Shown here: positions 10,678 to 31,117 of the stretch, piece after piece
How the letters are laid out: each line of letters begins with the position of its first letter
Position numbering within the stretch: position 1 is the first letter of the stretch
DNA from: an uncultured Pseudoxanthomonas sp.
Lineage (GTDB): Bacteria > Pseudomonadota > Gammaproteobacteria > Xanthomonadales > Xanthomonadaceae
Length of the DNA stretch: 64,000 bases
Reading direction: 5' to 3'
NCBI GenBank assembly: GCA_946479745.1
Contig: CAMLGZ010000002.1
Location: 314,607-378,606, forward strand
Position numbers and translations under genes: made by a program
Notes under the pieces: model-generated
Database searches by the model: none
Told to the model about the DNA's origin: nothing
What the model saw: the letters and a program-made list of their open reading frames with translations, nothing else

Positions 10678-12066
10678 ATGACCGACCAGCCGACAGACTT
10701 CGCCAGCCTCTCCCTCTCGCCAGGCCTGCAGCAGGGCGTGGAGGCCGCCGGCTACGCGCAGATGACCCCGATCCAGGCCGAAAGCCTGCCTGCCATTCTC
10801 GCTGGGCGCGACGTGATCGCGCAGGCGCCCACCGGCAGCGGCAAGACGGCCGCATTCGGCCTGGGGTTATTGCACCGGCTGGACCCCGCGCTGATCCGCG
10901 CGCAGGCGCTGGTGCTCTGCCCTACCCGCGAACTGGCCGATCAGGTGGGCAAGCAATTGCGCAAACTGGCCTCCGGCATTCCGAACCTGAAGTTGCTGGT
11001 ATTGACCGGCGGCATGCCGTTGGCGCCGCAACTGGCTTCCTTGGCGGTCCATGATCCGCACGTGGTGGTCGGTACGCCCGGCCGCATCCAGGAGCTGATG
11101 CGCAAGAAGGCGTTGCATCTGGCCGATGTACGCACCCTGGTGCTGGACGAGGCGGACCGCATGCTCGACATGGGTTTCGAGGAAGCGATCCGCGAAATCG
11201 TCGGCAAGACTCCGAAAGAGCGGCAGACGCTGCTGTTTTCGGCCACGTTTCCCGAGGCCATCCGCGACATCGGCCGCAACACCATGCGCGACCCGCTGGA
11301 GGTCACTGCAGGCGGCGTGACCGAACAGCCCGTCATCGAACAGACCTTCTATGAAGTCGATCTGGCGCGCAAGCAGACCACGCTGGCCGGTCTGTTGTTC
11401 GAACAACGGCCCGAATCGTGCGTGGTCTTCTGCAATACCCGCCGCGATGTAGACGAGGTGGCCGAATCTTTGAAGCACTTCGGCTTCACCGCGTTGGCCT
11501 TGCATGGCGACATGGAGCAGCGCGACCGCGACGAAGTGCTGGTGCGTTTCGCCAACCGCAGCTGCAACGTGCTGGTGGCCAGCGACGTCGCCGCGCGCGG
11601 GCTGGATATCGAAGAGCTGGCCACGGTAGTCAATTACGAACTGCCCACCGATCCCGACGTGTACGTGCACCGCATCGGGCGCACCGGGCGCGCCGGGAAA
11701 GGCGGTCAGGTGCTGAGTCTGGTGACCCCGCGTGAGATTTCGCGGGCGCACCTGCTGGAAGAAAAACAGGGCTCGCCGTTGCGCTGGAAGAAACCGGTCG
11801 CCGTGGCGCCTGCGGCACGCAGCGCACCGCCTGCTGCGATGGCAACGCTGCGCATCGATGCCGGGCGCACGGACAAGCTTCGCCCCGGCGACATCCTGGG
11901 AGCGCTCACCGGCGATGCGGGATTACCGGCCAGCGCAATCGGCAAGATAGACATCTTCGCGACGCGCTCCTATGTCGCCATCGCGCGCAACCAGGCCAAC
12001 AACGCACTGGCTCGGCTCGACAAGGGCAAGATCAAGGGCAAGAACTTCCGTGTCCGCAAGATGTAG
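10678..12066 (+). CDS. dbpA: ATP-dependent RNA helicase DbpA (DEAD box)
   Basis: A 462-residue helicase acting in 50S ribosome assembly. Motifs appear in order: Q motif region MTPIQ, walker A APTGSGKTA, PTRELA, TPGR, DEAD (VLDEADRM), SAT (FSATFP), and HRIGRTGR. The final 75 residues match the DbpA RNA-binding domain that recognises helix 92 of 23S rRNA. I choose ATG 10678, which lies just before the conserved start of the Q-motif region; 17 further residues in frame upstream look non-coding. The TAG stop codon (12064-12066) is part of the GTAG head of a REP element. Confidence 0.95.
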   Translation: MTDQPTDFASLSLSPGLQQGVEAAGYAQMTPIQAESLPAILAGRDVIAQAPTGSGKTAAFGLGLLHRLDPALIRAQALVLCPTRELADQVGKQLRKLASGIPNLKLLVLTGGMPLAPQLASLAVHDPHVVVGTPGRIQELMRKKALHLADVRTLVLDEADRMLDMGFEEAIREIVGKTPKERQTLLFSATFPEAIRDIGRNTMRDPLEVTAGGVTEQPVIEQTFYEVDLARKQTTLAGLLFEQRPESCVVFCNTRRDVDEVAESLKHFGFTALALHGDMEQRDRDEVLVRFANRSCNVLVASDVAARGLDIEELATVVNYELPTDPDVYVHRIGRTGRAGKGGQVLSLVTPREISRAHLLEEKQGSPLRWKKPVAVAPAARSAPPAAMATLRIDAGRTDKLRPGDILGALTGDAGLPASAIGKIDIFATRSYVAIARNQANNALARLDKGKIKGKNFRVRKM

Positions 12067-12203
12067 GTCGGGGTTACGCCCCCGACGTGCCGGATGCGCG
12101 AGTAAAGTTTCCGTCGGCCATGTAAAGCCTGCCCCGTACTTGATACGGGGACCGACCTACGGAAGAGTGTAGGTCGGGGCTACGCCCCCGACATCAGACC
12201 TAC
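12063..12203. repeat. GTAG-headed REP cluster after dbpA
   Basis: GTAGGTCGGGG with its complementary CCCCCGAC arm begins at 12063 and ends with CCGACCTAC at 12152-12160, forming a bipartite element; inside it is another hairpin (12132-12150). A second unit runs 12169-12203. The same GTAGGTCGGGGCTACGCCCC unit recurs at 17218. It fills the gap between the converging genes dbpA and selO. Confidence 0.85.
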
Positions 12204-12227
12204 GGGAAAGCGTTGCCGGATATCCGA

Positions 12228-13787
12228 TCAAGAGCTGCACGAAAGCATCGAGCAGCCCGCACGATCGCGCGCCCAATCCGGGCGACGCTGCGCAAAGGCT
12301 TCCCGACCCGGCTGCTCGTCGTAGGGACGGCGTATGACCTCCAGCAGCTCCATAACCCCCGACGCGTCGCCTTGCTCGGCGCGGTCTATCGCCTGCTGCG
12401 CAAGATAGTTGCGCAGCACGATTCGTGGATTGGCCATCCGCATGCGTGTTCGCCTGGCCTCGGAATCGAGCGCATCGGACGCCACTCGAGCCGCATAGCG
12501 CTGCAACCAATCCATCAGCGCCGGCTCCATGGCCGCGCGCTTGTCGGCGCCGTAGAAGGCTTCATTCAAAGGATCCAAAGTCGGCGCGGCGGGATCGACC
12601 TGCGCCAGATTGCGGAAGAAGATGCTCATGTCCATCTCGCCCGCTTGCAGCAACGACCGCACGTCCTCCATCAGCGTCGCATCATCCTCTCCGTACTCGG
12701 CCAGGCCCAGCTTGCGCGCGGTGTTGTCTTGATCGGCGCGCGCATAGGTTTCCCGATAGCGCTGCAACCCTTCCTGCAAAGGCTCGGGACTTGCGAACAG
12801 CGAAGACAACGCGCCCGCCAGCCGGGTCAGGTTCCAGTACGCGATTTTCGGCTGCCAGCCGAAGCGATAGCGGCGTCCCTGCGCATCGGTGGTATTGGGC
12901 GTCCAATCCGGATCGTAGTCGTCGATCCAGCCGTAAGGACCGTAGTCGATGGTCAGGCCGAGTATCGACATGTTGTCGGTATTCATCACTCCGTGCACGA
13001 AGCCGACGCGCATCCAGTGCGCCACCATGACCGCAGTGCGCTCGCATACCTGCGCAAACCACTGCGCATACAGCGCTTCACCTTCGCCTTCCAGTTCGGG
13101 GAAATCGCGGCGGAGGGTGAAGTCCGCCAGTTGTTTGAGTAGGGGCAGCTCTCCGCGCGACGCGGGCAATTCATAGTTGCCGAAACGCAGGAAGGACGGC
13201 GCCACGCGACAGACAACAGCCCCCGGTTCGGCTTGCGGGTGTCCGTCGTAGAACATGTCGCGGATCACCGGCTCGCCGGTCGCCACCAGGCTTAGCGCGC
13301 GCGTGGTGGGCACGCCCAGGTGGTGCATGGCCTCGCTGCACAGGAATTCGCGAATGGAAGAGCGCAGGACCGCGCGTCCGTCGGCGGTGCGCGAGTAAGG
13401 CGTCGGGCCGGCTCCTTTGAGCTGGAGTTCCCAGCGCTGGCCTGCGGCATTGATCGCTTCGCCCAGAGAAATGGCGCGCCCATCGCCCAGTTGTCCGGCC
13501 CAATGGCCGAACTGGTGGCCACCGTAGTTGGCCGCTAAGGGTTGCATGCCCTGCAGCAACGCGTTGCCGCCGAAGATCTGGGCGAACTCCGGCGTAGCGA
13601 CGTCGCCTTCCTCAATATCCAGCAGCGCGGCAGTTTCGCGCGACCAGGCCAGCAGTTGCGGTGCGGCGACCGGGGTCGGGTCGACCCGCGAATACAGCGC
13701 CTCGCGGACTTCGCGCACGCCGGCTCCCTGCAGCGGATCGCCGGGAAGATCGGTAACGAAGCGGTTGTCGAATCTCAGCGGTTTCAT
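12228..13787 (-). CDS. selO: protein adenylyltransferase SelO (YdiU/UPF0061)
   Basis: A 519-residue pseudokinase-fold enzyme that transfers AMP from ATP to Ser/Thr/Tyr of proteins, linked to redox stress. Recognisable segments are LRFDNRF at the N-terminus, [21 protein letters not shown], and NTDNMSILG followed by DYGPYGWID. The C-terminus keeps a Cys-rich tail (GCSMLSCSS) typical of the family and thought to be redox-regulated. I prefer ATG 13787; a GTG two codons upstream is possible. It converges on dbpA across a REP cluster. Confidence 0.95.
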
Positions 13788-13824
13788 CGGCACAGGCTAC
13801 GCGCCAGCGGTTGAAGCCGCACAA

Positions 13825-13854
13825 ACAAAAACGCCGGGGCAAGCCCCGGCGTTT
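13825..13854 (-). terminator. intrinsic terminator of the cold-shock gene
   Basis: A 10-bp GC stem (13831-13840 with 13843-13852) with a two-base AA loop, extended by three A-T pairs, followed on the minus strand by a T-rich tract. It lies 22 bases after the cold-shock gene stop. Confidence 0.8.
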
Positions 13855-13875
13855 CGGACAACGATACAGTCGCTA

Positions 13876-14085
13876 TTAGAGCGGCTGGACTTCGTCGGCC
13901 TGCATACCCTTCTGGCCCTGCACGGCGACAAAGCTGACGCTCTGGCCTTCCTGCAGCGACTTGAAGCCGGAACCCTGGATCGCGCGGAAATGCACGAAAA
14001 GGTCCGGGCCGCTCTGCGGGGTGATGAAGCCAAAACCCTTGGCATCGTTGAACCACTTGACGGTACCGGTTTGACGGTCAGACAT
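13876..14085 (-). CDS. CspA-family cold-shock protein
   Basis: A 69-residue OB-fold protein binding single-stranded RNA and DNA. Both nucleic-acid motifs are intact: RNP1 as KGFGFI (residues about 16-21) and RNP2 as LFVHF (about 29-33). The start has CAGGAG about 9 bases upstream. The preceding 265 bases carry no gene and include a T-rich stretch just before the ribosome site; a long structured leader is usual for cold-shock mRNAs and is likely here, though no specific cold box was identified. A strong terminator follows. Confidence 0.95.
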
Positions 14086-14350
14086 CTTTGAAACTCCTGA
14101 AACGGATGAAAAAAATCACGACCTGGGGACCCCGGGCCGAGACTGAGTTGCAGGTGTTAAGCAAAGCGGAAAGATGTAGCTGATCGTTTTGGATCGACTG
14201 CATCAGGCCACGATTTACGGTGACCCAAGCAAACACAGTGCCGTGCACACTACACACCTTTCCGGCAAAAGCCAATCCCCCGCCCAACCGCGGATAACCG
14301 GCAGTGGGGCGGTTTGCCCTAAACTGGCCTCCCCTACAGGAAAGAAGCCC

Positions 14351-14509
14351 ATGGCGAAGCCCAATTATTCGTTTGAGAAGAAGCAGCGCGAGTTGGCCAA
14401 GAAGAAGAAGCAGGACGAAAAACTGGCCAAGAAGCAGGCTACGCGGGAGCCGGGCCAAGCCGACGGCACCCCGCCAGCCGGGCCGGATTCTTCCGGCGGC
14501 GGTCGCTAA
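14351..14509 (+). CDS. small Lys-rich hypothetical protein (52 aa)
   Basis: A 52-residue protein. The first 30 residues are highly basic (KKQRELAKKKKQ), likely a helix; the tail is Gly/Pro/Ser-rich. AGGAAAG lies about 7 bases before the ATG. It overlaps by four bases, tail to tail, with the pseudouridine synthase gene. No domain recognised; the composition resembles a second small protein at 26612 and suggests nucleic-acid or ribosome contact, which is inference. Confidence 0.75.
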   Translation: MAKPNYSFEKKQRELAKKKKQDEKLAKKQATREPGQADGTPPAGPDSSGGGR

Positions 14510-15402
14510 ACCGGCGTTTCCAGGACCCTGGGACTCTCGAACGCCCGCCGGACCCCCGTCATGGGGTCCACGAAAGACAAGCCCTTGGCCAGCAATTGCA
14601 GGGGCCGCTGGTAGTCGTCCGCGACCCGGGCCATCAGGTCGGGGTAGTAAGGGTCGTGACGGATCGGCGCCCCCAGGGCCGCCATATGCACCCGCAGCTG
14701 GTGCTTGCGGCCGCTGACGGGGAAAAGTGCGTAGCGCCACCATTGGCCATCCGAACCCAGCACCTCGATCCGGCTAACGGAATTGGGTTCCCCCTCTTCC
14801 TCCCGCATCCGGAAGAATGGCTCCGACTTCACGATGCGCGACTCCCGCACCTGCGGAAACCTCAGATCCGGCAATCCAGGCGCCACGGCTTCGTAGCGTT
14901 TTTCGATCCGACGCTCGCGGAACAGCGCCTGGTAGGCGTCCCGACTGGCCTTGTTGGCCGAGAACAGCACAAGCCCGGCAGTTCCGCGATCGATGCGATG
15001 CAGTGGCACCAGGTCGCTATTGCCCAGCCTCCCGACCAGCCGGGTCAGCAGCGTTTCGCGCACGTGCGCCCCCGTGGGGGCTACGGGCAGGAAATGCGGC
15101 TTGTCGACCACCACCAGGTGCTCATCGACATGCAGGACCGTTTCCTCGAATGGGATCCGGGGTTCTTCCGCCACTTCGCGGAAATAGTGGATGGTCACGC
15201 CGACGCGATACGGCGTGTCCGCAGCCAGCGGCTGCCACAACGAGTCCAGCACCCGCCCACGCGCGAAGCGGTCCAGCCAGCTGGCGCGGTCGACTTGCGG
15301 AAAGCGGGCGCATAGACCGTCCAGCAAGGTCGTCCAGGCGCCGGGCGGAAGCTGCAGCTTGCTGGCGACCGCTTCGGCGGCATCGAAATCGGAAACGGAC
15401 AA
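14506..15402 (-). CDS. RluA-family RNA pseudouridine synthase
   Basis: Isomerises uridine to pseudouridine in rRNA or tRNA. The catalytic motif is LHRIDRGTAGL with the nucleophilic Asp, preceded by VVDKPHFLPV and followed by SGRKHQLRVHM, all family hallmarks. No N-terminal S4 domain is evident. The frame is open to 15510, but that would overlap the divergent YaeQ gene; the TTG at 15402 has GGGAGG about 8 bases upstream, so I choose it (298 residues) with limited certainty. Which site is modified cannot be told. Confidence 0.85.
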   Translation of the reverse strand: MSVSDFDAAEAVASKLQLPPGAWTTLLDGLCARFPQVDRASWLDRFARGRVLDSLWQPLAADTPYRVGVTIHYFREVAEEPRIPFEETVLHVDEHLVVVDKPHFLPVAPTGAHVRETLLTRLVGRLGNSDLVPLHRIDRGTAGLVLFSANKASRDAYQALFRERRIEKRYEAVAPGLPDLRFPQVRESRIVKSEPFFRMREEEGEPNSVSRIEVLGSDGQWWRYALFPVSGRKHQLRVHMAALGAPIRHDPYYPDLMARVADDYQRPLQLLAKGLSFVDPMTGVRRAFESPRVLETPV

Positions 15403-15460
15403 AGCACGGCCTCCCTGGAACAAGGCCGTATCATGGCCGACCTTTTCCCCTGGCACCTCA

Positions 15461-16015
15461 ATGGCGCTCAAATCCACGGTCGTGAAGGCCGAACTGCAGA
15501 TCAGCGACATGGATCGCCATTACTACGCGACCCACAACCTCACCCTGGCCCAGCATCCGTCCGAAACCGATGCGCGCCTGATGGTGCGCCTGCTGGCGTT
15601 CGCCATGTACGCGGACGAGCGCCTGGAGTTCGGCCGTGGCCTGAGCCAGGACGATGAGCCGGATCTTTGGCTCAAGGAGCTGACTGGCGAGATTCTGCTG
15701 TGGATCGACCTGGGCCAGCCGGATGAAGCGCGCATACGCAAGGCTTGCGGGCGCTCGCGGCAGGTTGTGCTGTTCACCTATGGCGGCCGCAGCTCGGATA
15801 TCTGGTGGGAAAAGAACGTCGCGTCGCTGGCCCGCAGCAAGAACCTCACCGTCATCGACATCCCGATCGAAGTGGTCGAACAGCTGACTGCGATGATGGT
15901 GCGCGGCATGCGTCTGAACGTGATGATCCAGGATGGAGAGCTGCAGGTGCTGGGCGGCGATGTCACCATCGACATCAAGCCCGTCGTTCGCCAGGCGGCC
16001 ACGCAAGGTCAGTAA
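15461..16015 (+). CDS. yaeQ: YaeQ family protein
   Basis: A 184-residue protein of the YaeQ family, which has a PD-(D/E)XK nuclease-like fold but lacks an established biochemical role; in some bacteria it suppresses haemolysin transcription defects. The whole length is family-like: it begins MALKSTVVKAELQISDMDRH and ends with VTIDIKPVV. It starts 58 bases from the divergent pseudouridine synthase and is followed after four bases by a flavoprotein gene, so both are probably cotranscribed. Confidence 0.92.
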   Translation: MALKSTVVKAELQISDMDRHYYATHNLTLAQHPSETDARLMVRLLAFAMYADERLEFGRGLSQDDEPDLWLKELTGEILLWIDLGQPDEARIRKACGRSRQVVLFTYGGRSSDIWWEKNVASLARSKNLTVIDIPIEVVEQLTAMMVRGMRLNVMIQDGELQVLGGDVTIDIKPVVRQAATQGQ

Positions 16016-16019
16016 TCGC

Positions 16020-17201
16020 ATGAGCCACAGTCACGACGTGCTGATCATCGGCGGCGGCGCGGCCGGGCTGATGTGCGCATTGACGGCCGGCCAGCGCGGG
16101 CTTCGCGTGCTGGTGGTGGAACACGCCAACCGGGTGGGCAAGAAAATCCTGATGTCCGGCGGCGGGCGCTGCAACTTCACCAACACCGGCGCCACGCCGG
16201 CGAACTATCTGTCGGCCAATCCGCATTACTGCAAATCGGCGCTGGCGCGCTACAGGCCCTCGGATTTCATCGACATGGTCGAACGCCATGGCATCGCCTA
16301 CCACGAGAAGGAGCTGGGGCAGCTGTTCTGCGACGATTCGTCCAAGCAGATCGTGAAGATGCTGGTGGACGAATGCGAAACGGCGGGCGCGCGCATCGAA
16401 ACCAGCTGCAGCGTGGAGAACGTGCAGCGTACCGATGGCGGTTTTCGCCTGCGCACGACGCGCGGCACGCTGTCGGCACCCGCGCTGGTGGTGGCCTGCG
16501 GTGGCCTTTCGATTCCCAGCATGGGCGCCAGCGGTTTCGGTTACGAACTGGCGCGCCAGTTCGGTCATACCGTGCTGCCGACGCGCGCCGGGCTGGTGCC
16601 GCTGACCCTGACGGGGAAGCACCAGGAGCACCTGCAGGACCTCAGCGGCGTGGCGCTGCCGGTCGAGGCCAGCTGCAACGGCCACAGCTTCCGCAACTTC
16701 ATGCTCATCACCCATCGCGGCGTGAGCGGGCCTTCGATCCTGCAGATCTCTTCCTACTGGCAGCCCGGCGACGATCTGCGTCTGGATCTGCTGCCCGGCA
16801 ATGATGCCCTGCAGCTTCTGCGCGAACAGCAGGCCTCGCGCCCAGCCGCCGAGCTCAAGACCGTGCTCTCCGACTTTCTGCCGCGACGTTTCGCCCAGCG
16901 CCTGTGCGAGTTGTGGCTGCCGAACAAACCGATGAAGCAGTTCAACGAACCGCAATTGCGCGAAATCGCTGCGCAACTGCAAAGCTGGCCGCTGATCGCC
17001 AGCGGCACCGAGGGCTACCGCACCGCCGAGGTTACTCTGGGCGGCGTGGATACCGACGAACTGTCTTCAAGCTCGATGCAGTCGAAGAAAATCCCAGGGC
17101 TGTATTTCATCGGCGAAGTGGTCGACGTCACCGGCTGGCTGGGCGGCTACAACTTCCAGTGGGCCTGGGCTTCCGGCCACGCCGCCGGCAACGCCGTCTG
17201 A
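16020..17201 (+). CDS. HI0933/YhiN-type FAD-dependent oxidoreductase
   Basis: A 393-residue flavoprotein. The FAD-binding Rossmann motif GGGAAGLMCA is at residues about 12-21, followed by GKKILMSGGGRCNFTN, the signature of the HI0933-like (BaiN/RdsA) group, and the C-terminal GEVVDVTGWLGGYNFQ that contacts FAD. The start ATG lies four bases after yaeQ. Substrate unknown. A second member of the broader group lies at 22369 with a different signature, so they are not recent duplicates. Confidence 0.92.
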   Translation: MSHSHDVLIIGGGAAGLMCALTAGQRGLRVLVVEHANRVGKKILMSGGGRCNFTNTGATPANYLSANPHYCKSALARYRPSDFIDMVERHGIAYHEKELGQLFCDDSSKQIVKMLVDECETAGARIETSCSVENVQRTDGGFRLRTTRGTLSAPALVVACGGLSIPSMGASGFGYELARQFGHTVLPTRAGLVPLTLTGKHQEHLQDLSGVALPVEASCNGHSFRNFMLITHRGVSGPSILQISSYWQPGDDLRLDLLPGNDALQLLREQQASRPAAELKTVLSDFLPRRFAQRLCELWLPNKPMKQFNEPQLREIAAQLQSWPLIASGTEGYRTAEVTLGGVDTDELSSSSMQSKKIPGLYFIGEVVDVTGWLGGYNFQWAWASGHAAGNAV

Positions 17202-17217
17202 CCGCAATCCGATGCGC

Positions 17218-17285
17218 GTAGGTCGGGGCTACGCCCCCGACAGACGTAACCCAACAGGAGCGTCGGGGACGTAGCCCCGACCTAC
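17218..17285. repeat. GTAG-headed REP pair (BIME)
   Basis: Two head-on units, 17218-17241 and 17262-17285, each starting GTAGGTCGGGGC on opposite strands. Same family as 12063-12203. The GTAG head of the right unit (complement of 17282-17285) contains the stop codon of the luciferase-like gene. Confidence 0.88.
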
Positions 17286-18259
17286 ATCGCTTCGGCGGCC
17301 AATTCGAAGGACCGCAAACGTGCGGCATGATTGAACACATTGGCCACCAGCATCAGTTCGTCCGGACGATGCCGGTCGACGAAGGCGGCGATACCGCGCT
17401 TCACCGTTTCCGGGTCGCCCACCACGCTGCAGGCCAGGGCGTTCTCCACGCCCAGCTTTTCATGCGGCTGCCAATAGGTTTCGATATCGTCGATGGGCGC
17501 TGGTATCAGTCCAGGTTTGCCGCGGCGCAGGTTGACGAAACTCTGCTGCGCGGTAGTGAACAGACGCTTGGCTTCGGCATCGGTCGCAGCGGCCACCACA
17601 TTCAACGCCAACATCGCGTGTGGCTTGGCCAGGTACTGCGAAGGACGGAAGTCGCGGTGATAGACCGCCAGCGCCTGGTCCATCGCGTCCGGTGCGAAGT
17701 GCGAAGCGAAGGCGAACGGCAGCCCCAGCGCCGCGGCGAGCTGCGCGCTGAAAAGGCTGGAGCCCAACAGCCACACCGGCACCTCAAGTCCAGCGCCCGG
17801 AACGGCGCGCACCAATTGGCCGGCCTGCACAGGTGCGAAGTAGCCCAGCAATTCCTGCACGTCGTGCGGGAATTGCTCGGCGCTGTCGAAATAACGCCGC
17901 AACGCCTTGGCCGTGGGCTGGTCCGTGCCGGGCGCGCGGCCCAAGCCCAGATCGATGCGGCCCGGATACAGCGAGGCCAGCGTGCCGAACTGTTCGGCCA
18001 CCTGCAGCGGCGCATGGTTGGGCAGCATCACTCCGCCGGAGCCCACGCGGATGGTTCTGGTACCGCCGGCGACATAACCGATCAGCACCGCAGTCGCTGC
18101 GCTGGCGATACCCGGCATGTTGTGGTGTTCGGCCAGCCAGTAGCGCTGGTAACCCCAGGCTTCGGCGTGTTGCGCCAGATCCAGGGTATTGCGGAAGGCC
18201 TGTGCGGCATCGCTGCCTTCGCAGACCGGGGCCAGATCGAGTATCGAGTAGGGAATCAT
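17282..18259 (-). CDS. LLM class flavin-dependent oxidoreductase (luciferase-like)
   Basis: A 325-residue TIM-barrel monooxygenase using reduced flavin. It opens with [11 protein letters not shown] and contains [26 protein letters not shown], and GLGRAPGTD, the profile of the alkanal monooxygenase-like subgroup common in proteobacteria. Starts at 18259 or 18280 are both possible; neither has a strong ribosome site, and 18259 fits the usual family N-terminus. The TAG stop codon is embedded in a REP element. Substrate unknown. Confidence 0.9.
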
Positions 18260-18355
18260 GGAGGCTGCCGTCGAAGTCATGGCTTCGACATGGGGCCCGC
18301 ATCAAGCATTGCCAATCCGATCAGCGACCGGACTGGCGGGACGCTGAGTTCCGTA

Positions 18356-19027: not shown

Positions 19028-19133
19028 GGATGCCTCGCGACAGTGGGGGAGCGCGTCAGCGACGCATGCCGATCATAGCCCAACGCACTCGATCCACCGA
19101 TGTGGGAGCGGCGTCTGTGGGAGCGATGTTCTG

Positions 19134-19871: not shown

Positions 19872-19924
19872 GGGCACCATTGTAAATGGCGCCAATCAGG
19901 GAGCAAAAACATTAAACCAAATGG

Positions 19925-19952
19925 TTGACAATCAAATCAGGATGGATAATAT
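19925..19952 (+). promoter_or_regulatory. promoter of the ArsR-type regulator operon
   Basis: A perfect -35 TTGACA (19925-19930), a 16-base spacer and a -10 TAATAT (19947-19952). Transcription would start at about 19959-19961, at or next to the ATG at 19961. Confidence 0.7.
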
Positions 19953-19972
19953 TCAACTCTATGGTTGAATAT
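19949..19972. promoter_or_regulatory. operator palindrome over -10 box and start codon
   Basis: ATATTCAAC, six bases, GTTGAATAT: a perfect 9-bp dyad typical of ArsR-family sites. It covers the end of the -10 box, the start site and the first codons of the regulator, so binding would block its own transcription. Confidence 0.75.
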
Positions 19973-21447: not shown

Positions 21448-21490
21448 ATGGTTTTTCCGGGATGACGGAGTTCCTGGTGATCGGGCAACG

Positions 21491-21856: not shown

Positions 21857-21930
21857 GACCGCATGATAACGGCGTAACCGGGAATCGCAGCATGCGTTAC
21901 CCTGCGCGCCTCCAACAACGAGGATCCTCC

Positions 21931-22362: not shown

Positions 22363-22368
22363 TCCGCC

Positions 22369-23625: not shown

Positions 23626-23760
23626 TCTGGTCGTCCGCCATGGCCCGGCAAGGGGAGAGACCCTGCCTGCGACGATCGCGGACGTGGCAGCAGGATATCC
23701 AGCGCGGTGTTGAAATTCGGTTAGAACTCCGCGTCATTCTGATGACAGAAAAGCATTTGT

Positions 23761-23913
23761 TCAGAACGGAGTCGGCAATCCCAGCATGGGCGCCAGCAAC
23801 CAGTAGGCAACGCCGAGCACCAACACCCATAGCAACAGCTTGAGTGCGAAGCCGGCAACTTTGATCGCCAGATAAATGCCGATCACGATCAGCACGATTC
23901 CGATCCAGCTCAT
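23761..23913 (-). CDS. small hydrophobic membrane protein (50 aa)
   Basis: A 50-residue protein almost wholly made of two hydrophobic stretches: residues about 3-22 (IGIVLIVIGIYLAI) and 25-44 (KLLLWVLVLGVAYWLLAP), with a short polar tail LPTPF. A good ribosome site (AGGAAG) lies 6 bases before the ATG. It is short but has start, stop and ribosome site; no family was recognised. The next gene on the same strand is 34 bases upstream, so the two may be cotranscribed. Confidence 0.75.
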   Translation of the reverse strand: MSWIGIVLIVIGIYLAIKVAGFALKLLLWVLVLGVAYWLLAPMLGLPTPF

Positions 23914-23947
23914 GCGCTCTTCCTGTCTTCGCGTTGCATGGAATCCG

Positions 23948-24136
23948 CTAGGCCTTGCTGCCGCGCTTGCGCGCCTGCGAGGCCACGAACATATTATCCA
24001 CCAGGTTCGGATAAGCGCGTCCGGCCGCCTCGGCGCGAGCCTTGGCCTGTTCTATCTGTTCCGGCGTCAATTTGACGTGTCCGCCCGGTCCGGCCGGATT
24101 CCTGCGGTCCCAGGGTTTTGCGGTACGACTGGTCAT
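23948..24136 (-). CDS. small basic hypothetical protein (62 aa)
   Basis: A 62-residue soluble protein: KPWDRRNPAGPGG at the N-terminus, then an Ala/Glu/Arg helix (TPEQIEQAKARAEAAGRAYP) and a basic end (RKRGSKA). No known domain. Located between DUF1993 (24 bases upstream) and the 50-residue membrane protein, all minus strand, so an operon is likely. Confidence 0.7.
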   Translation of the reverse strand: MTSRTAKPWDRRNPAGPGGHVKLTPEQIEQAKARAEAAGRAYPNLVDNMFVASQARKRGSKA

Positions 24137-24160
24137 TGCTTCGATCCTCAGGTGATGGAC

Positions 24161-24670
24161 TCAGTACGCGCCCATGTAGTCGCGCTTGCCCACTGCCACG
24201 CCATTGTGCCGCAGCAGGTCGTAGGCGGTGGTGACGTGGAAGAAGAACTGCGGCAGGCCGTAGTGCAGCAGGTAGGCTTGGCCTTCCATCCTGCGTTCCT
24301 TCGGCGTACCCGGGCGCAGCACGATTTCGCGCGAACCTGCAGCTTCGAATGCCGCCGGGTCCAGGCCGCCGATGAAATCCAGACTGGCCGCAATCAGGCC
24401 CCGCAGATCGGCGAAACTCTTGTTGTCGCCTTCCAACGCCGGCAGTTCCGCACCCGCCAGACGGCCGGATACTCCGCGTGCGAAGTCGCAGGCCACGACC
24501 ACCTGCTTGGCCAACGGGAACATATCGGGAAACAGCCTCGCCTGCAGCAGGGCGTCGGCATCGATCTTGTGTTCGACCGCATGCGCCTCGGCCTTGGCCA
24601 GCAACTGGTCGAGGCTGCCGAGCAGTTGCTGGAAAACGGGAACGGAAGCGGCGTGCATTGAAATGGTCAT
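24161..24670 (-). CDS. DUF1993 family protein
   Basis: A 169-residue protein of the DUF1993 family, four-helix-bundle-like and possibly related to DinB-type folds. It shows the family segments ARLFPDMFPLAKQV and FFFHVTTAYDLLRHNGV and ends GKRDYMGAY. Cytosolic; function unknown. Its start lies beside a 73-base palindromic repeat (24700-24772). Confidence 0.9.
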   Translation of the reverse strand: MTISMHAASVPVFQQLLGSLDQLLAKAEAHAVEHKIDADALLQARLFPDMFPLAKQVVVACDFARGVSGRLAGAELPALEGDNKSFADLRGLIAASLDFIGGLDPAAFEAAGSREIVLRPGTPKERRMEGQAYLLHYGLPQFFFHVTTAYDLLRHNGVAVGKRDYMGAY

Positions 24671-24699
24671 CGGAAATCCTATTGAAATGAATCAGGGTC

Positions 24700-24772
24700 G
24701 TAGGAGCGCCCCATGGGCGCGAGCTCTTCTGTTGGATTCTGCGAAGAGCTCGCGCCCATGGGGCGCTCCTAC
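24700..24772. repeat. REP-like palindrome (GTAGGAGCGCCCC)
   Basis: Perfect 29-bp arms (24700-24728 and 24744-24772) around a 15-base loop. Head GTAGGAGCG as in the elements at 31114, 60576 and 62102, but with a different body. Confidence 0.88.
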
Positions 24773-24786
24773 GGGGAATGATTGGG

Positions 24787-25644
24787 TCAATCCTGCTCGG
24801 CGGCAGCCTCGCGGCCCTGCTGGCGGATCAGAGCTTCTTCTCGGGCGTCGTTGATGGCGCCGCGCACGCCGTCCAGATCGACGCTGCGCTCGTCGTGCAC
24901 GAACCTGCCCGTCAGCGGGGTGTCCGCAAGCAGATCGCCAGCTTCGAACAATGCCCACATTTCCTCGCCGTACCAGCTGTCCAGCAACTCCGGTGCGAAA
25001 GCGCCCAGCGTGGCGGTCAGATTGTTGACGTCGCGCAACAACATCGCCCGCGCTGCGTTGTTGCCGCCGGCACTGACCACCTGCGGGAAATCGATCACCA
25101 CCGGACCTTCGGCACCGACCAGCACGTTGTAGGCCGACAGGTCGCCATGGATCAGGCCGATGCTCAACATCAACTGGACCTGCCTGACGAGGAAAGCGTG
25201 GTATTCGCGGGCCTGGTCGGGTTCGAGCGCCAGCTCGCCCAGGCGCGGCGCGGAGAACCCATCGGCATCGGTGACCAGTTCCATGACCAGAACGCCATGG
25301 AAATAGCCGTACGGCTGCGGCACGCGCACGCCGGCCTCGACCAACTGGTAGAGCGCGTCGACTTCGGTGTTCTTCCAGGCGACTTCCTGTTGCTTGCGCC
25401 CGTACTTACTGGCCTTGCCGATGGCGCGCGCCTCGCGGCTGCCGCGCACCTTGCGGCCCTCCTGGTACTGCACCCGCTGCTTGAAGCTGCGCTGGGCCAT
25501 GTCCTTGTACACCTTGGCGCAACGCACGTCGTCGCCGGAGCGCACCACGTAGACGGCCGCTTCCTTGCCGCTCTTCAGCGGACGCATCACTTCGTCGATC
25601 ACGCCGTCGTCGATCAGCGCTTGCAGGCCTTGCGGGGTTTTCAT
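24787..25644 (-). CDS. RIO1-type serine protein kinase
   Basis: A 285-residue atypical kinase. Motifs: a P-loop-like LKSGKEAAVYVV, Lys in CAKVYK, catalytic loop IHGDLSAYNVLV (HxDxxxxN), and the metal-binding DFPQ. Bacterial RIO kinases occur in several proteobacteria; targets are not well known, a ribosome or stress role is suggested by analogy with the eukaryotic and archaeal enzymes. Start chosen at 25644, MKTPQGLQAL; the frame extends upstream without credible residues. Divergent from the pseudouridine synthase (120 bases). Confidence 0.92.
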   Translation of the reverse strand: MKTPQGLQALIDDGVIDEVMRPLKSGKEAAVYVVRSGDDVRCAKVYKDMAQRSFKQRVQYQEGRKVRGSREARAIGKASKYGRKQQEVAWKNTEVDALYQLVEAGVRVPQPYGYFHGVLVMELVTDADGFSAPRLGELALEPDQAREYHAFLVRQVQLMLSIGLIHGDLSAYNVLVGAEGPVVIDFPQVVSAGGNNAARAMLLRDVNNLTATLGAFAPELLDSWYGEEMWALFEAGDLLADTPLTGRFVHDERSVDLDGVRGAINDAREEALIRQQGREAAAEQD

Positions 25645-25764
25645 CCAGTAGAGGGTTTTGCCGGTGGGGCGCCCATTGTGCCTGCGCGGGGGCCCGAACC
25701 GGCGAAAACGGACCGTTTGCGGGCAAGCGCTTACACTGCACCCCCGTAGCCGCACGCTCTCCAC

Positions 25765-26475
25765 ATGCCTGAACCCATCCGCCTGGCCAAACGCGTCGCC
25801 GAACTGGCTGGTTGCTCCCGGCGCGAAGCCGACCAGTACATCCAGGGCGGCTGGGTCACCGTGGACGGCGAAGTGATCGACGCCCCGCAACACCCCATTA
25901 CCACCCAAGTGGTGTCGATCGACCCGGACGCCGACCTGGAGACGGCCGAGCCGGCGACCCTGCTACTGCACAAACCGGCGGGCATCGCCTTCGAAGCCGC
26001 TCCGAAACTCGCTACTCCCGCCACGCACACCGCTGGCGACGATCCCGAGATACGGGTGCTCAAACGCCATTTCGTGCGCCTGACCCCACTGATGCCGATG
26101 GATGACGAAGCCAGCGGCCTGGTCGTGCTGAGCCAGGACGGGCGCGTATGGCGCCGGCTGAGCGAGGATGCGGACATGATCGAGCAGGAGTTCGTGGTGG
26201 AAGTGGAAGGCGAGCTGGCTCCCTACGGCTTGCCCAGACTTTGCGATGGCATGCTTTACCAGGGCCGTGCCCTGCCCCGCGCCAAAGTCAGCTGGCAGAA
26301 CGAGAACAACCTGCGCTTCGCGATCAAGGCGGTCCGGCCGGGACAGTTGCGGCACATGTGCGCACAAGTGGGGCTGCAGGTGCTGTCGATCCGTCGCCTG
26401 CGCATCGGCCGTATCGCCCTGAGCAGAATGCCGGTCGGCGAGTGGCGTTACCTGCCTGTCGGCGAGCGCTTCTGA
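25765..26475 (+). CDS. RsuA/RluF-family pseudouridine synthase
   Basis: A 236-residue enzyme with N-terminal S4 RNA-binding domain (LAKRVAELAGCSRREADQYI, residues about 7-26) and the catalytic domain. The active-site block reads PLMPMDDEASGLVVLSQDG: the catalytic Asp is kept, but the usual Gly-Arg-Leu before it is Met-Pro-Met, an uncommon substitution. The C-terminal RQLRHMC-type KxIRxxC segment is present (GQLRHMCAQVGL). Most similar to RluF-like members; the site modified is unknown. Confidence 0.88.
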   Translation: MPEPIRLAKRVAELAGCSRREADQYIQGGWVTVDGEVIDAPQHPITTQVVSIDPDADLETAEPATLLLHKPAGIAFEAAPKLATPATHTAGDDPEIRVLKRHFVRLTPLMPMDDEASGLVVLSQDGRVWRRLSEDADMIEQEFVVEVEGELAPYGLPRLCDGMLYQGRALPRAKVSWQNENNLRFAIKAVRPGQLRHMCAQVGLQVLSIRRLRIGRIALSRMPVGEWRYLPVGERF

Positions 26476-26611
26476 ACCCCTGCTGTTCGACCCGCATCGC
26501 AAGTTGCCTGGCGATTGACTAAGGTCGCCGGGCTGACAACACTAGAGGCCGCACCGGCATGGCCGCTGCAGCCGCCATCCTCCAACCAACGCAGACGAAG
26601 AAGAGGCTTGT

Positions 26612-26713
26612 ATGAGCAAGGGCATGGACCAGAAGAAGAGCGAGAAGAAGGCGCCGACAAAGACGCTGAAGGAAAAGCGCGCCGAGAAGCAGGAAAAGAA
26701 AAAGAACAAGTAA
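26612..26713 (+). CDS. small Lys-rich protein (33 aa)
   Basis: A 33-residue open frame starting MSKGMDQKKS and ending KKKNK, almost entirely Lys, Glu, Ala and Gln. AGAGG lies seven bases before the ATG, and a terminator follows 26 bases after the stop, so this is a plausible real gene. It resembles the 52-residue protein at 14351 in composition. Function unknown; RNA or ribosome contact is inference. Confidence 0.7.
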   Translation: MSKGMDQKKSEKKAPTKTLKEKRAEKQEKKKNK

Positions 26714-26738
26714 TCTTGCCCTGCAAGCAAGCGGGACG

Positions 26739-26778
26739 AAGGGCGGATGTTCCGGAAGGAACCCGCCCTTTCCTTTTT
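26739..26778 (+). terminator. intrinsic terminator
   Basis: An 8-bp stem (26739-26746 with 26763-26770), 16-base loop, and TCCTTTTT tail. It follows the small Lys-rich gene; with RidA converging on it, it may act in both directions. Confidence 0.75.
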
Positions 26779-26829
26779 GTAGCCGAGCCTGCCGTACTGC
26801 TCGCCGATTCCGCCGCGCACGCAAGGACG

Positions 26830-27174
26830 CTAGACCGCGGCGGTGACCACGACTTCTATTTTCCACTTGGGATTGGCCAGCGCAGCCTGCACGGTGGCGC
26901 GCGTGGGCGTATGTCCCGGCACCACCCAGGTCTCCCAGACCTCGTTCATCGCCGCAAAATCGCCCAGGTCGGGCAGGAATATCTGCGCATGCAGGATCTT
27001 GCTCTTGTCGCTGCCGGCCTGCGCCAGCAAAGCGTCGATGGAATCCAGCACCTGCCGGGTCTGGCCCTGGATGTTCAGGCTGGTGTCGTCGGCAATCTGG
27101 CCGGCCAGATAGATGGTGCCGTTGTGGATCGCCATTTCCGACAGGCGCGGGCCTACTTCGAATCGCTGGATCAT
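26830..27174 (-). CDS. RidA family protein (YjgF/YER057c/UK114)
   Basis: A 114-residue trimeric protein that hydrolyses reactive enamine/imine intermediates from PLP enzymes. The RidA signature is present: LAGQIADDT, the Arg in PTRATVQAAL that binds the substrate carboxylate, and the C-terminal WKIEVVVTAAV. The catalytic Arg is intact, so it is likely a functional deaminase rather than an Arg-less paralogue. No biosynthetic neighbour indicates a particular substrate. Confidence 0.93.
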   Translation of the reverse strand: MIQRFEVGPRLSEMAIHNGTIYLAGQIADDTSLNIQGQTRQVLDSIDALLAQAGSDKSKILHAQIFLPDLGDFAAMNEVWETWVVPGHTPTRATVQAALANPKWKIEVVVTAAV

Positions 27175-27252
27175 GGGGCTTCCTCCGTAGCTCGATAAAG
27201 ACCCATCCTACGGGAAGTGCCCGCCATCCCGTAACATCCGTCCGTCCGCGCA

Positions 27253-28767
27253 ATGGTTTTCCATGGGGTGAATATTTTGGACGGAAGCAAGGTCTCTTCT
27301 CGCGGGACTGCGAAAGAACGTTTCCGGCGCGCCTGCAAACGCCTGTTGCTGGCGCTCCTGGCTTGCTACCTGCTCTCGGCCGCCTGGCAGGTCTACAAAC
27401 CGCTGCCCGCAGGCATCGGACGGAATTTCCCCATCGCCTCTTCCGGCGATGCAGCGTTGCTGACCGACATCACCTATGTCGATGCGGCCGGCGTGCGCCA
27501 TAGCGATCAGCAGGTTTTCGATGAAGTCCTTCGGTTGATCGGGCAAGCGCAACGCGCGGTCGTGGTGGACATGTTCCTCTTCAACGACTTCACCGGCGCC
27601 GATGCCGCGCCCAGTCTGCGCCCACTGAGCGCTCAACTGACCCAGGCGCTGATCGAACGCAAGCGGGCAGTGCCCGGCCTGCAGGTCGTGGTTATCACCG
27701 ACCCCATCAACACGCTGTATGGCGGAATGCCGTCCAAGCATCTGGATGCCTTGCGCGCGGAGGGTATCGAAACGGTGGTCACCGATCTGACCCGCATCCG
27801 CGCGCCCAACCCTGCCTGGTCCGGATTCTGGCAGCTGTGCTGCCGATGGTTGGGGAACAGCGAACACGGCGGCTGGTTGTCCAGCCCTTTCGGCCAGGGC
27901 GAGACGACATTGCGCAGTTACCTGGCGCTGCTCAACCTCAAAGCCAACCATCGCAAAACCCTTGTGGTCGATTCCGGCGATGAATGGGTGGGCTTGGTGG
28001 CCAGCGCAAATCCGCACGATGGCAGCAGCGCGCACGGCAACGTGGCGTTGCGGTTCAGCGGCCCGGCCGCGTTGGATCTGCTGCAAAGCGAACGCGCTGT
28101 GGTGGCGATGTCCGGCGCTGCCTGGCCGCAATCGCTGGTTTCGATCAAACCCTCCACCCTCCCCGCCGGCACTGCCGTCGGCACCCAGGTGCAGATCCTC
28201 ACCGAAGGCCGCATCCGCGATGCGCTGCTGGCCAGCGTCGCCAGCGCCAAGCCAGGCGATCGGCTGGATATCGCGGTGTTCTATTTCACCCATCGTGGAC
28301 TGGTGAAGGAAGTAGTGGCGGCGCAACGGCGTGGTGTGAAGCTGCGCGTGCTGCTGGATCCGAACGAAGACGCTTTCGGTCGGAAGAAGAACGGCATCCC
28401 CAACCGCCAAGTGGCGCTGGAACTGCACGAAGCCGGAGTGCCCGTGCGCTGGTGCGACACCCATGGCGAGCAATGCCACGCCAAATTCATGCTCAAGCGC
28501 GGCGCTGCCGGCAAAGCGGAGCTGATCGTGGGATCAGCCAACTACACCCGGCGCAATCTGGACGACTACAACCTGGAAAGCAGTGCACGCGTACTGGCGG
28601 CTGCCGATACGGCCGTGATCAGCCGTGCGGGCTCCTATTTCGAGCAGAGCTGGAGCAATACCGAAGGCCGCCGGATCAGCCTGCCTTACGCCCGCTATGC
28701 CGATGATTCACGGCTGCGCTACTGGCGCTACCGCTTCACCGAGGCCTCCGGTCTGTCCAGCTTCTGA
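27253..28767 (+). CDS. phospholipase D family protein (cardiolipin synthase-like)
   Basis: A 504-residue protein with one N-terminal membrane helix (about residues 30-46) and two PLD repeats: NHRKTLVVD (HxK with downstream Asp) near residue 234 and QCHAKFMLKRG (HxK) near residue 413, followed by GSANYTRRNLDDYN. Such proteins make or cleave phospholipid phosphodiester bonds; the size and motifs recall bacterial cardiolipin synthases, but the substrate is not proven. Its last 60 bases overlap the 3' end of the convergent SGNH gene. Start at 27253 has no strong ribosome site. Confidence 0.87.
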   Translation: MVFHGVNILDGSKVSSRGTAKERFRRACKRLLLALLACYLLSAAWQVYKPLPAGIGRNFPIASSGDAALLTDITYVDAAGVRHSDQQVFDEVLRLIGQAQRAVVVDMFLFNDFTGADAAPSLRPLSAQLTQALIERKRAVPGLQVVVITDPINTLYGGMPSKHLDALRAEGIETVVTDLTRIRAPNPAWSGFWQLCCRWLGNSEHGGWLSSPFGQGETTLRSYLALLNLKANHRKTLVVDSGDEWVGLVASANPHDGSSAHGNVALRFSGPAALDLLQSERAVVAMSGAAWPQSLVSIKPSTLPAGTAVGTQVQILTEGRIRDALLASVASAKPGDRLDIAVFYFTHRGLVKEVVAAQRRGVKLRVLLDPNEDAFGRKKNGIPNRQVALELHEAGVPVRWCDTHGEQCHAKFMLKRGAAGKAELIVGSANYTRRNLDDYNLESSARVLAAADTAVISRAGSYFEQSWSNTEGRRISLPYARYADDSRLRYWRYRFTEASGLSSF

Positions 28768-29850
28768 TTCCGACACTCCTTTCCGGCCAAGCGCGGCAAT
28801 CACCTCGGCCTGGCTGATCGGCGTGACTGCCAGTTGGAAGCGCGCGTTCATCAGGTCGACCAGCGCGCGCGCCCACTCTGCATTCCATGCACTGCCCGCG
28901 TGGCCGTCGGCAAGCACCGCATGCTCCGGTCCGTCGCCTGCCGCGTTGCGCACATGCAGATTGCCCAGCACCAGATCGCGGTAGGCCGGCAGCCCCCGCC
29001 CGTCACGCGAACCCCAGCGCGCGGCAAACCAGGCGCGATCATCGAAGAAGGCTGTGCCTGGATCGGTGCGCGCCATCCCCGCCAGCGCGCGGTCGAATAC
29101 ATCCAGGCCCTCGTCGATATTGGCCAATTGAACCGGATCGTGCCAGCGGTCCAGGTACTTCGGCCAGTCGGCATTGTTGAAGATCCCGACCAGCACGATG
29201 CGCACCTTCGGATGGTGCGCGCGCAACAGCGCCACCGATCCCTGGATGGCCTGCACGCAGCCGGCGATCTTCTCCTGCACGGCCGCCGCGCGGGGATCGC
29301 GCGCCAGTTGGTCCAGATTCCGCGCATCGCCGAAGCTGTTGATGCCGATGCGGATCAGCACCACTCCATTGCGCCAGCGCGCCGGTTCCTGATCCATCAA
29401 CGAAAGCAGCGCCCTGGCCTGTTGCGAATAACCTTCCAGCAGATCGCCGCACTCGGCGCCGGAGAGCGCGAAGTTGTAGCGGAAATCCTCCTTCGGGGGC
29501 GAACGGCCCTCTCGCCCCAGCCAACGATTGGTGCGCGCCACCACGCCGCGCGTGCCATGAACCCCCCATTGGCCCTGATCCAGTTGCTGTCCGCGCAGGC
29601 GTTGCAACAGCTCGGTCCATTGCCAGGTGGTCGGACGATAATCGCCGCCCCGTTTGAGGCTTCCTGCCGGAAAAAAAATCGAGTCGTGATAGGCGTGACT
29701 GTCCGAGTCGCCCAGCACCGCCAGGGATACGGAACCGTCGGACGCGGTCGGTGCCGGATTCATCCCGGTCCGGTAGAAACACACGCACAACACCACCGCG
29801 CCGATGAGAGCGAGGTAAATCCAGAAAGCCGATCTTTTGGCTGGCAGCAT
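28708..29850 (-). CDS. SGNH/GDSL hydrolase family protein
   Basis: A 380-residue protein with one N-terminal membrane helix (residues about 9-27, WIYLALIGAVVLCVC) and an SGNH esterase domain: nucleophile Ser in VLGDSDSHAY, the Gly block in NFALSGAECGDL, Asn in IRIGINSFGD, and the Asp/His in LADGHAGSAW. GGGAATC precedes the ATG at 29850. Periplasmic side likely. Role unknown; its 3' end overlaps the PLD gene by 60 bases tail to tail. Confidence 0.85.
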   Translation of the reverse strand: MLPAKRSAFWIYLALIGAVVLCVCFYRTGMNPAPTASDGSVSLAVLGDSDSHAYHDSIFFPAGSLKRGGDYRPTTWQWTELLQRLRGQQLDQGQWGVHGTRGVVARTNRWLGREGRSPPKEDFRYNFALSGAECGDLLEGYSQQARALLSLMDQEPARWRNGVVLIRIGINSFGDARNLDQLARDPRAAAVQEKIAGCVQAIQGSVALLRAHHPKVRIVLVGIFNNADWPKYLDRWHDPVQLANIDEGLDVFDRALAGMARTDPGTAFFDDRAWFAARWGSRDGRGLPAYRDLVLGNLHVRNAAGDGPEHAVLADGHAGSAWNAEWARALVDLMNARFQLAVTPISQAEVIAALGRKGVSESEAGQTGGLGEAVAPVAQP

Positions 29851-30113
29851 GCTGATTCCCGGTGCACGCAAGGGAAAACGGGCAGATGCACCGGCTCCGG
29901 TCAGCACCCGCACCGGATTGGCGGTTCCAGGCTCTCCAGAGACCCGCCGCGCAGGTGGGCCGGCAAGCTTCAGGAAGCCTGGCGTAGGATGTTCCTGTCA
30001 CACGCTCGCCCGCGCGTCTCGCCCGACCGTCCTCCAGTCGCCCGCTTCGCTCCTTTCCCCGTGTCTTTCCTCCCGGTATCGGGATCGCTTGAGACGCTAC
30101 TCCTGGAGCGCCC

Positions 30114-30800
30114 ATGCCGGGCTACACCACCCGCTTGCTTACCGTCCGACTGGGCGGACACGACTATCGCATCCGTGCGCTCAGCGACCTGCAGCAGTTC
30201 GCCGATCCCACCGGGCAGGCGCACCGTGCCGGCATCTCTTCCTCGCTCTGGAGTCTGTTCGGGCAGGTCTGGCCCTCCGGTCGTGTCTTGGCCGAAGCCA
30301 TGAGCGGCTTCGACGTCGCAGGCAAGCGCATCCTCGAACTGGGCTGCGGCCTGGGCCTGTCCAGTCTGGTGCTGGCCAAACGCGGCGCCGATGTGGTGGC
30401 CAGCGATCATCATCCGCTGGCCGAATCCTTCCTGGCCTACAACGCCGGCCTCAACAATCTTCCTGCGGTAACCTACCGCGATCTGCCCTGGATGACGCCG
30501 GACGCCACGCTGGGCAGCTTCGACCTGATCATCGGCAGCGACATCCTGTACGAGCGCGATCACGCCGCCCAGATCGCGGCGATGATGCTGCGCCACGCCA
30601 ACCCCGATGCCGAGCTGCTGGTCACCGACCCGGGCCGCGGCAACAGCGGTCCGTTCACGCGCGCCATGGCCGAACAGGGATATGAAGTCACCGAGCGCCG
30701 CAGCCGCTTCAACGAAAAAGACGTCGAACCCTTCCGTGGCCGCCTGCTCAGCTACCGCCGCGGTACTCCGATGAGCAACGTCGGAACGGCACTGCAGTGA
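30114..30800 (+). CDS. class I SAM-dependent methyltransferase (METTL16B/lysine type)
   Basis: A 228-residue cytosolic enzyme with the SAM motif ILELGCGLGLSSLVLAKRGADV (cut here: ILELGCGLG at residue about 73), an acidic SDHHPLA loop, and GSFDLIIGSDILYERD, the DxxY-like block of the FAM86/METTL21 protein-lysine methyltransferase group. Protein substrate unknown. The stop overlaps the GTG start of the YkgJ gene (GTGA), so both are translated together. Confidence 0.88.
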   Translation: MPGYTTRLLTVRLGGHDYRIRALSDLQQFADPTGQAHRAGISSSLWSLFGQVWPSGRVLAEAMSGFDVAGKRILELGCGLGLSSLVLAKRGADVVASDHHPLAESFLAYNAGLNNLPAVTYRDLPWMTPDATLGSFDLIIGSDILYERDHAAQIAAMMLRHANPDAELLVTDPGRGNSGPFTRAMAEQGYEVTERRSRFNEKDVEPFRGRLLSYRRGTPMSNVGTALQ

Positions 30801-31117
30801 GCAGCATTCCCCTGCACCTGCACGGCGGCATCGATGCCTCGGTGTCGTGCAGTCATTGCGATGCGGTCTGTTGCCGGCTCACCGTAGTGGTCATGCCGGA
30901 GGACCGGGTTCCGCGTCACCTGGTGGAGCGCAACGAGCATGGTGTGGAAGTCATGGCCCATGGCGAGGATGGGTGGTGCGTAGCGATCGATCCGCTGCGC
31001 ATGTGCTGCAGCATCTACGACCAGCGCCCGGGGATCTGCCGCAAGTTCGCCATGGGCAGCGAGTACTGCGTGGACGAACGGCGAATCTACCGCAGCCGCT
31101 ACGACCAGCCCCTGTAG
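30797..31117 (+). CDS. YkgJ-type cysteine cluster protein
   Basis: A 106-residue protein of the YkgJ (zinc- or iron-chelating, CxxCxxxCC) family: SCSHCDAVCC at residues about 17-26, CCSIYDQRPGICRKF, and a final Cys, all Fe-S or zinc ligands. Function of the family is not settled. The start is GTG, overlapping the methyltransferase stop. The TAG stop is embedded in the GTAG head of a REP element. Confidence 0.88.
   Translation: MSSIPLHLHGGIDASVSCSHCDAVCCRLTVVVMPEDRVPRHLVERNEHGVEVMAHGEDGWCVAIDPLRMCCSIYDQRPGICRKFAMGSEYCVDERRIYRSRYDQPL

Follow-up and report, generated by a model that had tools for sequence, protein, structure and literature searches.

The DNA analysed here, a stretch of 64,000 nucleotides that we call the window, is nearest to Pseudoxanthomonas: its DbpA shares 97% identity with the P. 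sacheonensis protein (L001) and 92% with the one from P. yeongjuensis (L002). Three of its genes end in a TAG stop codon made up of bases 2 to 4 of the GTAG head of a REP element. This had been reported in the initial annotation, and all three coordinates proved correct when checked. The first gene, dbpA (10678 to 12066, plus strand), encodes a DEAD-box RNA helicase matching PF00270, PF00271, and PF03880 (DbpA); its start is the call of our hexamer script, the frame being open from 10627. Its last codons are AAG ATG TAG, and the stop (12064 to 12066) lies within the head GTAGGTCGGGG at 12063, whose GTAG occupies 12063 to 12066. This head opens a plus-strand REP of the GTAGGTCGGGG family (12063 to 12086), the hairpin of which stands directly 3' of the dbpA stop. 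Behind it, the same array continues at 12147 to 12192 with an inverted head (GTAGGTCGG, reading downward from 12160) and a further REP (12169 to 12192, plus strand).

The second gene, encoding a luciferase-like monooxygenase (17282 to 18280, minus strand; PF00296, Bac_luciferase), ends in GCG ATG TAG. Its head starts at 17285 and reads down, and the TAG (17284 to 17282) belongs to a GTAGGTCGGGG-family REP on the minus strand (17262 to 17285). This REP is the right end of a REP doublet, or REPIN, whose left end is a GTAGGTCGGGG-family REP at 17218 to 17241 (plus strand). Converging on the luciferase-like gene is a presumably flavoprotein-like gene (16020 to 17201, plus strand), which has kept an older TGA stop in the window, with the REP head 16 bases beyond, and which is captured, that is, ends on the TAG of a REP head, in two relatives (G001 and G031). 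The third gene, of the YkgJ type (30797 to 31117, plus strand; PF03692, CxxCxxCC), ends in CCC CTG TAG (stop at 31115 to 31117). The head here is GTAGGAGCGC (31114 to 31123, plus strand), a partial GTAGGAGCG head, truncated to 10 bases, that forms no hairpin itself and abuts a complete GTAGGAGCG-family REP doublet (31124 to 31192; heads at 31124 on the plus and 31192 on the minus strand). The involvement of two REP families, also claimed at the outset, was confirmed: the dbpA and luciferase-like heads start GTAGGTCGGGG-family hairpins, and the YkgJ head is a partial GTAGGAGCG. A palindrome directly follows the head at 12063 and 17285 and is absent at 31114. Of the 14 heads that these two families have in the window, 3 coincide with a stop.

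These elements carry the 5' tetranucleotide GT(A/G)G of GTAG REPs and REPINs, and their copy number is high, GTAGGTCGGGG occurring 76 + 76 times in P. sacheonensis (G001) versus 2 + 5 times for the reversed pattern. The 152 copies in G001 compare with none in P. yeongjuensis (G002) or G004 and one in G003, so the family seems to have expanded recently. In the surveyed stretches described below, inverted doublets (outward-head pairs 25 to 200 bases apart) numbered 30 for GTAGGTCGG and 77 for GTAGGAGCG. The base preceding GTAG was C or T in 94% of 181 GTAGGAGCG heads there; in 79 GTAGGTCGG heads it was C in 56% and T in 19%.

RAYT (Y1_Tnp, PF01797) genes were found in all four relatives searched, with 30 places in total. 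GTAGGAGCG heads flank the gene at L177, L180, L183, L185, and L186, among the 17 places inspected; no GTAGGTCGG head flanked a Y1_Tnp gene in these 17, one head lying about 1.3 kb off in L189. A RAYT for the GTAGGTCGG/GTAGGTCGGGG REPs was not found at the 17 places inspected in the relatives. In the window, tblastn with the proteins around five RAYT loci detected no RAYT, the single weak match coming from a neighbouring gene.

The initial annotation had suggested counting REP heads against stop codons. We made this survey in relatives, with a comparison between positions, pooling the window with some 400 kb from each of G001 and G002, 440 kb of G031, and 12 more stretches of G001. The latter were picked around listed GTAGGTCGGGG heads, from a partial listing of places, and the family totals are therefore no unbiased genome count. 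Genes were called by our own hexamer script in place of a standard caller, and calls scoring below 25 were excluded (below 40 in the hairpin count that follows and below 20 for the 14 heads of the window). The P values take genes as independent even if related, unless orthologues had been collapsed. The TAG of the head served as the stop in 36 of 260 heads of the two families, while 4 were read through. On average, 3.6 heads per base were found at distances +1 to +20 behind the stop (+1 being a head directly after it), and no position from -60 to +60 other than the stop itself held more than 9. The excess on the stop is real, with a Poisson tail of 9e-24 when relatedness is ignored. With orthologues collapsed, the four main sets, which contain 25 captured genes, amount to 16 sites, and the extra stretches contribute 11 more. 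REP-stop overlap in the relatives is thus far above chance. The head variants GTGG, GCAG, and GTCG/GTTG gave 0 on stops by construction and hence are no real control.

An excess was also seen for the hairpins. In loci L001 to L084 and the window, with orthologues not collapsed, a hairpin (stem of at least 6, starting within 3 bases) lay directly behind 25 of 109 GTAG stops versus 34 of 1385 others (Fisher 1e-14), the latter comprising 27 of 1070 TGA, 5 of 208 TAA, and 2 of 107 other TAG stops.

The reading frame of the heads depends on the fate of the gene's own stop. Where the older stop was present, the TAG was in frame in 41 of 119 heads at distances 0 to 100, as by chance (p = 0.85). Where it was gone, 36 of 40 heads were in frame (Fisher 3.5e-10 versus heads with a kept stop), and counting orthologues once (16 + 11 sites versus 4 read-throughs) gave a binomial tail at 1/3 of 9e-10. 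A frame that is random beside an old stop and biased after its loss argues for selection against read-through of the hairpin, rather than for precise insertion or for selection of a backup stop. Backup-stop selection, the keeping of in-frame heads while the old stop is still intact, was discarded, as the same 41 of 119 show no sign of it. The proposal that elements persist at places where the head can stand in for a stop is in agreement with the frame bias.

We compared individual sites between relatives, whose identity over aligned stretches was 91.4% for G031 versus G001, about 87.5% for the window versus both, and 82.6% for G002 versus G001. At five sites, a close relative carries a REP of the same family 0 to 16 bases behind an intact older stop; at those five, the overlap arose after REP arrival. 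The claim that the elements insert precisely at gene ends is not supported by these sites; the claim that heads replace stops is borne out. In the following, a slash precedes the GTAG or TAG of the head. The dbpA gene ends in ATG TGA AC/GTAG-REP in G031, in ATG/TAG-REP in the window and G001, and in ATC TGA without this REP in G002. By eye, the arrays of the window and G031 have linker sequence in common, and G001, which has a single REP, matches the third G031 REP in its right flank. The luciferase-like gene ends in ATG AAA TGA T/GTAG in G031, ATG/TAG in the window, ATG AAC GG/GTAG in G001, and ATG CGC TGA in G002. For the flavoprotein-like gene, the ends are GTC TGA plus 16 bases and GTAG in the window, ATC GC/GTAG in G001, GTA AAC GC/GTAG in G031, and GTC TGA in G002 and G003. 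A 161-aa gene (A251), which we take to encode glutathione peroxidase, ends in AAC TGA/GTAG in G031 and in GCT GAG TAG in G001, which fits the loss of one base; the right junction of its REPIN is identical in both genomes. At A170, G031 has TAA, 11 bases, and GTAG, and G001 lacks the old stop, the right flank and junction being nearly identical. REP array homology was judged by eye throughout. As lineages vary in the bodies and linkers of their REPINs, or carry them inverted, some REPs treated as the same may be separate arrivals. The linker at A251 is inverted between G031 and G001. A linker inverted between these two species next to an identical right junction was observed for the REPIN of G001 L101 (about 9138 to 9210) versus G031 L236.

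Fourteen captured GTAGGTCGG sites were compared between G001 and G031. We left out C337 (doubtful orthologue), C338, and C347 of G031 and, from the extra G001 stretches, L193-, the GTAGGAGCG site in L198, L201, L203, and L204. In 4 of the 14 (A170, A251, A268, A275), G031 has kept the old stop with the REP behind it. Four others (A274, L198, L202, L194+) are captured in both genomes at different codons, A274 having kept its old stop in the window. Another four (A64, L193+, the mutS-like L200, L194-) are captured alike in both, and no intermediate is seen there. The remaining two, C175 and C176, share one REPIN; they are captured in G031, and the REPIN is absent from G001, where the genes have a GTAGGAGCG head at +7 behind their own GTAG or a GTAG followed by an apparent REP remnant.

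In G002, 11 of the captured GTAGGTCGG sites have uncaptured orthologues, which end in TGA (6), TAA (2), or TAG without a preceding G (3); none of the 11 ends in GTAG, and several have a GTAGGAGCG REP farther on. In the three other cases, the G002 counterpart of C175 runs into a REP, that of L194+ is captured by GTAGGAGCG, and L194- has no orthologue. Given the 82.6% identity, the G002 ends represent orthologous stops, not exact empty sites. Uncaptured G002 orthologues, A166 included, showed no significant TAG enrichment (4/12 versus 54/322, p = 0.13). As had been suggested, C-termini are affected: aligned with uncaptured orthologues, captured genes are mostly shifted by 0 to +2 codons. The exceptions are -1 for the luciferase-like gene of the window (versus G031 and G002) and for A170 versus G031, -3 for L198 versus G002, G003, and G017, and -4 for C175 versus the G002 gene running into a REP; more distant relatives show longer extensions of +3 and +6. 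The initial annotation had named an ancestral, REP-independent stop as the finding that would count against it, and on this point the outcome is divided. The position of the stop is usually ancestral, to within these 0 to +2 codons, while the codon is not, as the TGA, TAA, and non-G TAG ends of G002 indicate.

With a truncated head, and with TAG already serving as the stop in the two nearest relatives, the YkgJ gene is a weaker, doubtful case. G001 and G031 end in ACA TAG, and the REP heads there lie at +8 and +18. The G002 gene is captured by another GTAGGAGCG element, and that of G003 ends in GCG TAG, followed only by what by eye resembles a REP remnant. Relative to G001 and G031, the shift is -1 and +3 for the window and -2 and +2 for G002. 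Judging from these ends, the TAG may be older than the overlap, and for this gene alone coincidence could be the explanation.

We then extended the comparison to panels of 30 genomes each, out of 37 with a match for the luciferase-like gene and 38 for two others. Including the window, 12 of 31 luciferase-like genes are captured by strict count and 14 of 31 with two imperfect hairpins (L132 and L145, set as captured by hand), and several distinct REP families are involved. Its tree, built on 945 bases with the 3' end left out and with 10 of 28 inner branches poorly supported, requires at least 7 changes of capture state. As far as gene ends and tree can tell, this gene is captured repeatedly within the genus. 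On this tree, both dbpA and the luciferase-like gene must have been captured independently in the window and in G001, unless a reversal took place. In the panel of the 161-aa gene, 2 of 30 genomes are captured, by two families, as extensions of +1 and +6 codons; 25 of the others have TGA without a detected REP, 2 have ATAG, and 1 has TGA with a REP directly behind. The A168 panel contains 4 of 30 captured genes, 9 GTAG stops without a perfect hairpin, 13 TGA, and 4 TAA.

Several observations on these gene ends may be added. Behind the same TTG TAG stop of A168, different REPIN bodies and linkers were found (G001 L095, about 11542 to 11610; G031 L206; G002 L207), a swapping of bodies at a constant address that also occurs at A60/C94 and A169/C159. 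The short gap between the convergent genes at 17201 to 17285 of the window and in relatives (L001, L005, L006, L012) is a REP hotspot in the genus, and in some species both stops are GTAG heads with a hairpin. Gene A187 (C22 of G001, L097) ends in TGG TAG followed by CCGACG; in G031 a complete REP follows this TAG, and the G002 gene ends in TAA. From these three ends, the G001 site looks like a REP deleted to its head, with the amber stop as a relic.

We propose that these overlaps result from stop capture, in which the TAG of a REP takes over after small mutations have removed the gene's own stop, and we assign this reading a probability of roughly 0.7. REPs and REPINs with outward GTAG heads sit just behind gene 3' ends. 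The older stop would be lost by small deletions or a one-base frameshift, as the alignments suggest, and translation would then end at the TAG of the head if this is in frame. Out-of-frame outcomes would read through the hairpin and mostly be purged and in-frame captures would stay, which is how we interpret the observed bias. Captures shift the C-terminus slightly, usually by 0 to +2 codons, and leave the hairpin directly behind the stop. We infer that the indels originate beside the head once a REP has arrived; they might come from flank turnover beside heads, perhaps aided by RAYT nicking next to GTAG. The spacer between stop and head had changed in length between G001 and G031 at 7 of 15 REP sites versus 16 of 89 control intergenic regions (p = 0.02), a weak comparison, since the two groups have anchors of different kinds. 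In other bacteria, TnpA-REP proteins are described, in the part of the source available, as cleaving at CT near the REP, with GTAG helping to choose the site (PMC8266576), and such cleavage could destabilise the flanks.

Under coincidence, the abundance of REPs around gene ends would by itself bring some TAGs into frame. REPs are indeed crowded at 3' ends, 72 of 260 heads lying at distances 0 to 20, but the 36 heads on a single position where 3.6 would be typical, the in-frame share of 36 in 40, and the excess of hairpins behind GTAG stops lead us to reject it for the two families, and we give it hardly any credence. A somewhat less remote but still very improbable alternative is that GTAG, an amber stop after G, pre-exists as a target on whose 3' side the REP inserts, in the way that IS200/IS605 elements use a tetranucleotide. 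It would account for the different REP bodies behind the same TAG in relatives (TTG TAG in A168/C158/B168, and the luciferase-like gene) and for the GTAG stops without a perfect hairpin (A168, 9/30), some of which resemble imperfect or decayed REPs. However, the tetranucleotide was missing where the element is absent (0 of 11 orthologous stops in G002), these genes ending in TGA, TAA, or another TAG, and we dropped this model. Moreover, the literature on TnpA-REP, as far as the source was available, places GTAG inside the element as a guide, with cleavage at CT (or CA) nearby (PMC8266576).

Precise insertion, in which the RAYT machinery puts REPINs at or inside stop codons and the head replaces the stop at once, appears unlikely, although less so than either of these. 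The stop is where GTAGGTCGG heads are most frequent (24 of 79, with 10 more at +1 to +3), unlike GTAGGAGCG heads (12 of 181, the remainder spreading over +3 to +19 and farther; Fisher 2e-6), and this concentration makes an insertion preference possible. A zero codon shift is also common, as in the mutS-like gene (CTC TGA to CTG TAG) and dbpA (ATC TGA to ATG TAG). Against it stand the five sites where a relative's REP lies behind an intact old stop, the four captured in G001 and G031 at different codons, and several captured genes that are longer than their uncaptured orthologues (+1, +2, +3, +6), which insertion into a gene end would not give. Equally doubtful, in our estimate, is a tuning of GTAGGTCGG REPINs to stop codons, by which they would be drawn to, or eroded to, the exact gene end. 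RAYT nicking between C and T beside the head might then fall on NNC/TGA boundaries, and repeated nicking with rejoining would shorten the flank step by step until a frame-filtered TAG is the stop; if so, such a ratchet would make amber stops fossils of REP activity. We also looked for correlated capture of both REPIN ends and rejected it, with 4 double captures in 16 convergent GTAGGTCGG REPINs versus 3.5 expected; among convergent GTAGGAGCG REPINs there were 0 of 23.

That GTAG REPs "often provide" TAG stops was already printed in 2013 (PMC3733652), and REP-supplied stops as a phenomenon are thus not new. The GTAG-tagged REPs of that work, in the portion available, resemble ours in having GTAG at one end, a palindrome, a high copy number, and a location near 3' ends. 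For stop overlap, its section 15, as available, neither compares orthologues nor tests the frame nor puts the events in order; a comparison of homologues is given for REPs at NH2 ends. An orthologue-based account of how the overlap arises was not found in the open-licence literature searched, as far as the texts were accessible. Stop capture adds to the 2013 remark a mechanism drawn from the comparison of relatives, that is, a testable process. The REPINs and RAYTs described elsewhere (PMC3116915, PMC2817692, PMC3686654) are likewise inverted REP doublets acting as a unit with a GT(A/G)G head, with REP-flanked RAYT genes and turnover of the REP class ('orthoswitch'); replacement of a flanking gene's stop is not treated in the available parts of these papers. 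Similarly, the REPs and TnpA-REP of Stenotrophomonas, related bacteria, combine GTAG with a perfect palindrome (PMC8266576, PMC3686654), but their stem sequences, where given, are different. In our data, two Stenotrophomonas loci (L036, L044) have GTAG stops with a hairpin directly behind.

In E. coli, REPs at most 15 bases from the stop are said to stall ribosomes and lower translation, as told in the part of PMC12306157 available. There the gene has its own stop, whereas here the hairpin starts right behind a stop derived from the REP. By analogy with these E. coli REPs, captured genes may pay a translation cost, and with their hairpin directly behind the stop they would be natural cases for measuring such an effect. 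Capture would be one reason why stop codons and last residues differ among orthologues of close species. Overall, stop capture would mean that REPs catch lost stops, that the frame of their heads shows selection, and that some amber stops may mark past REP activity.
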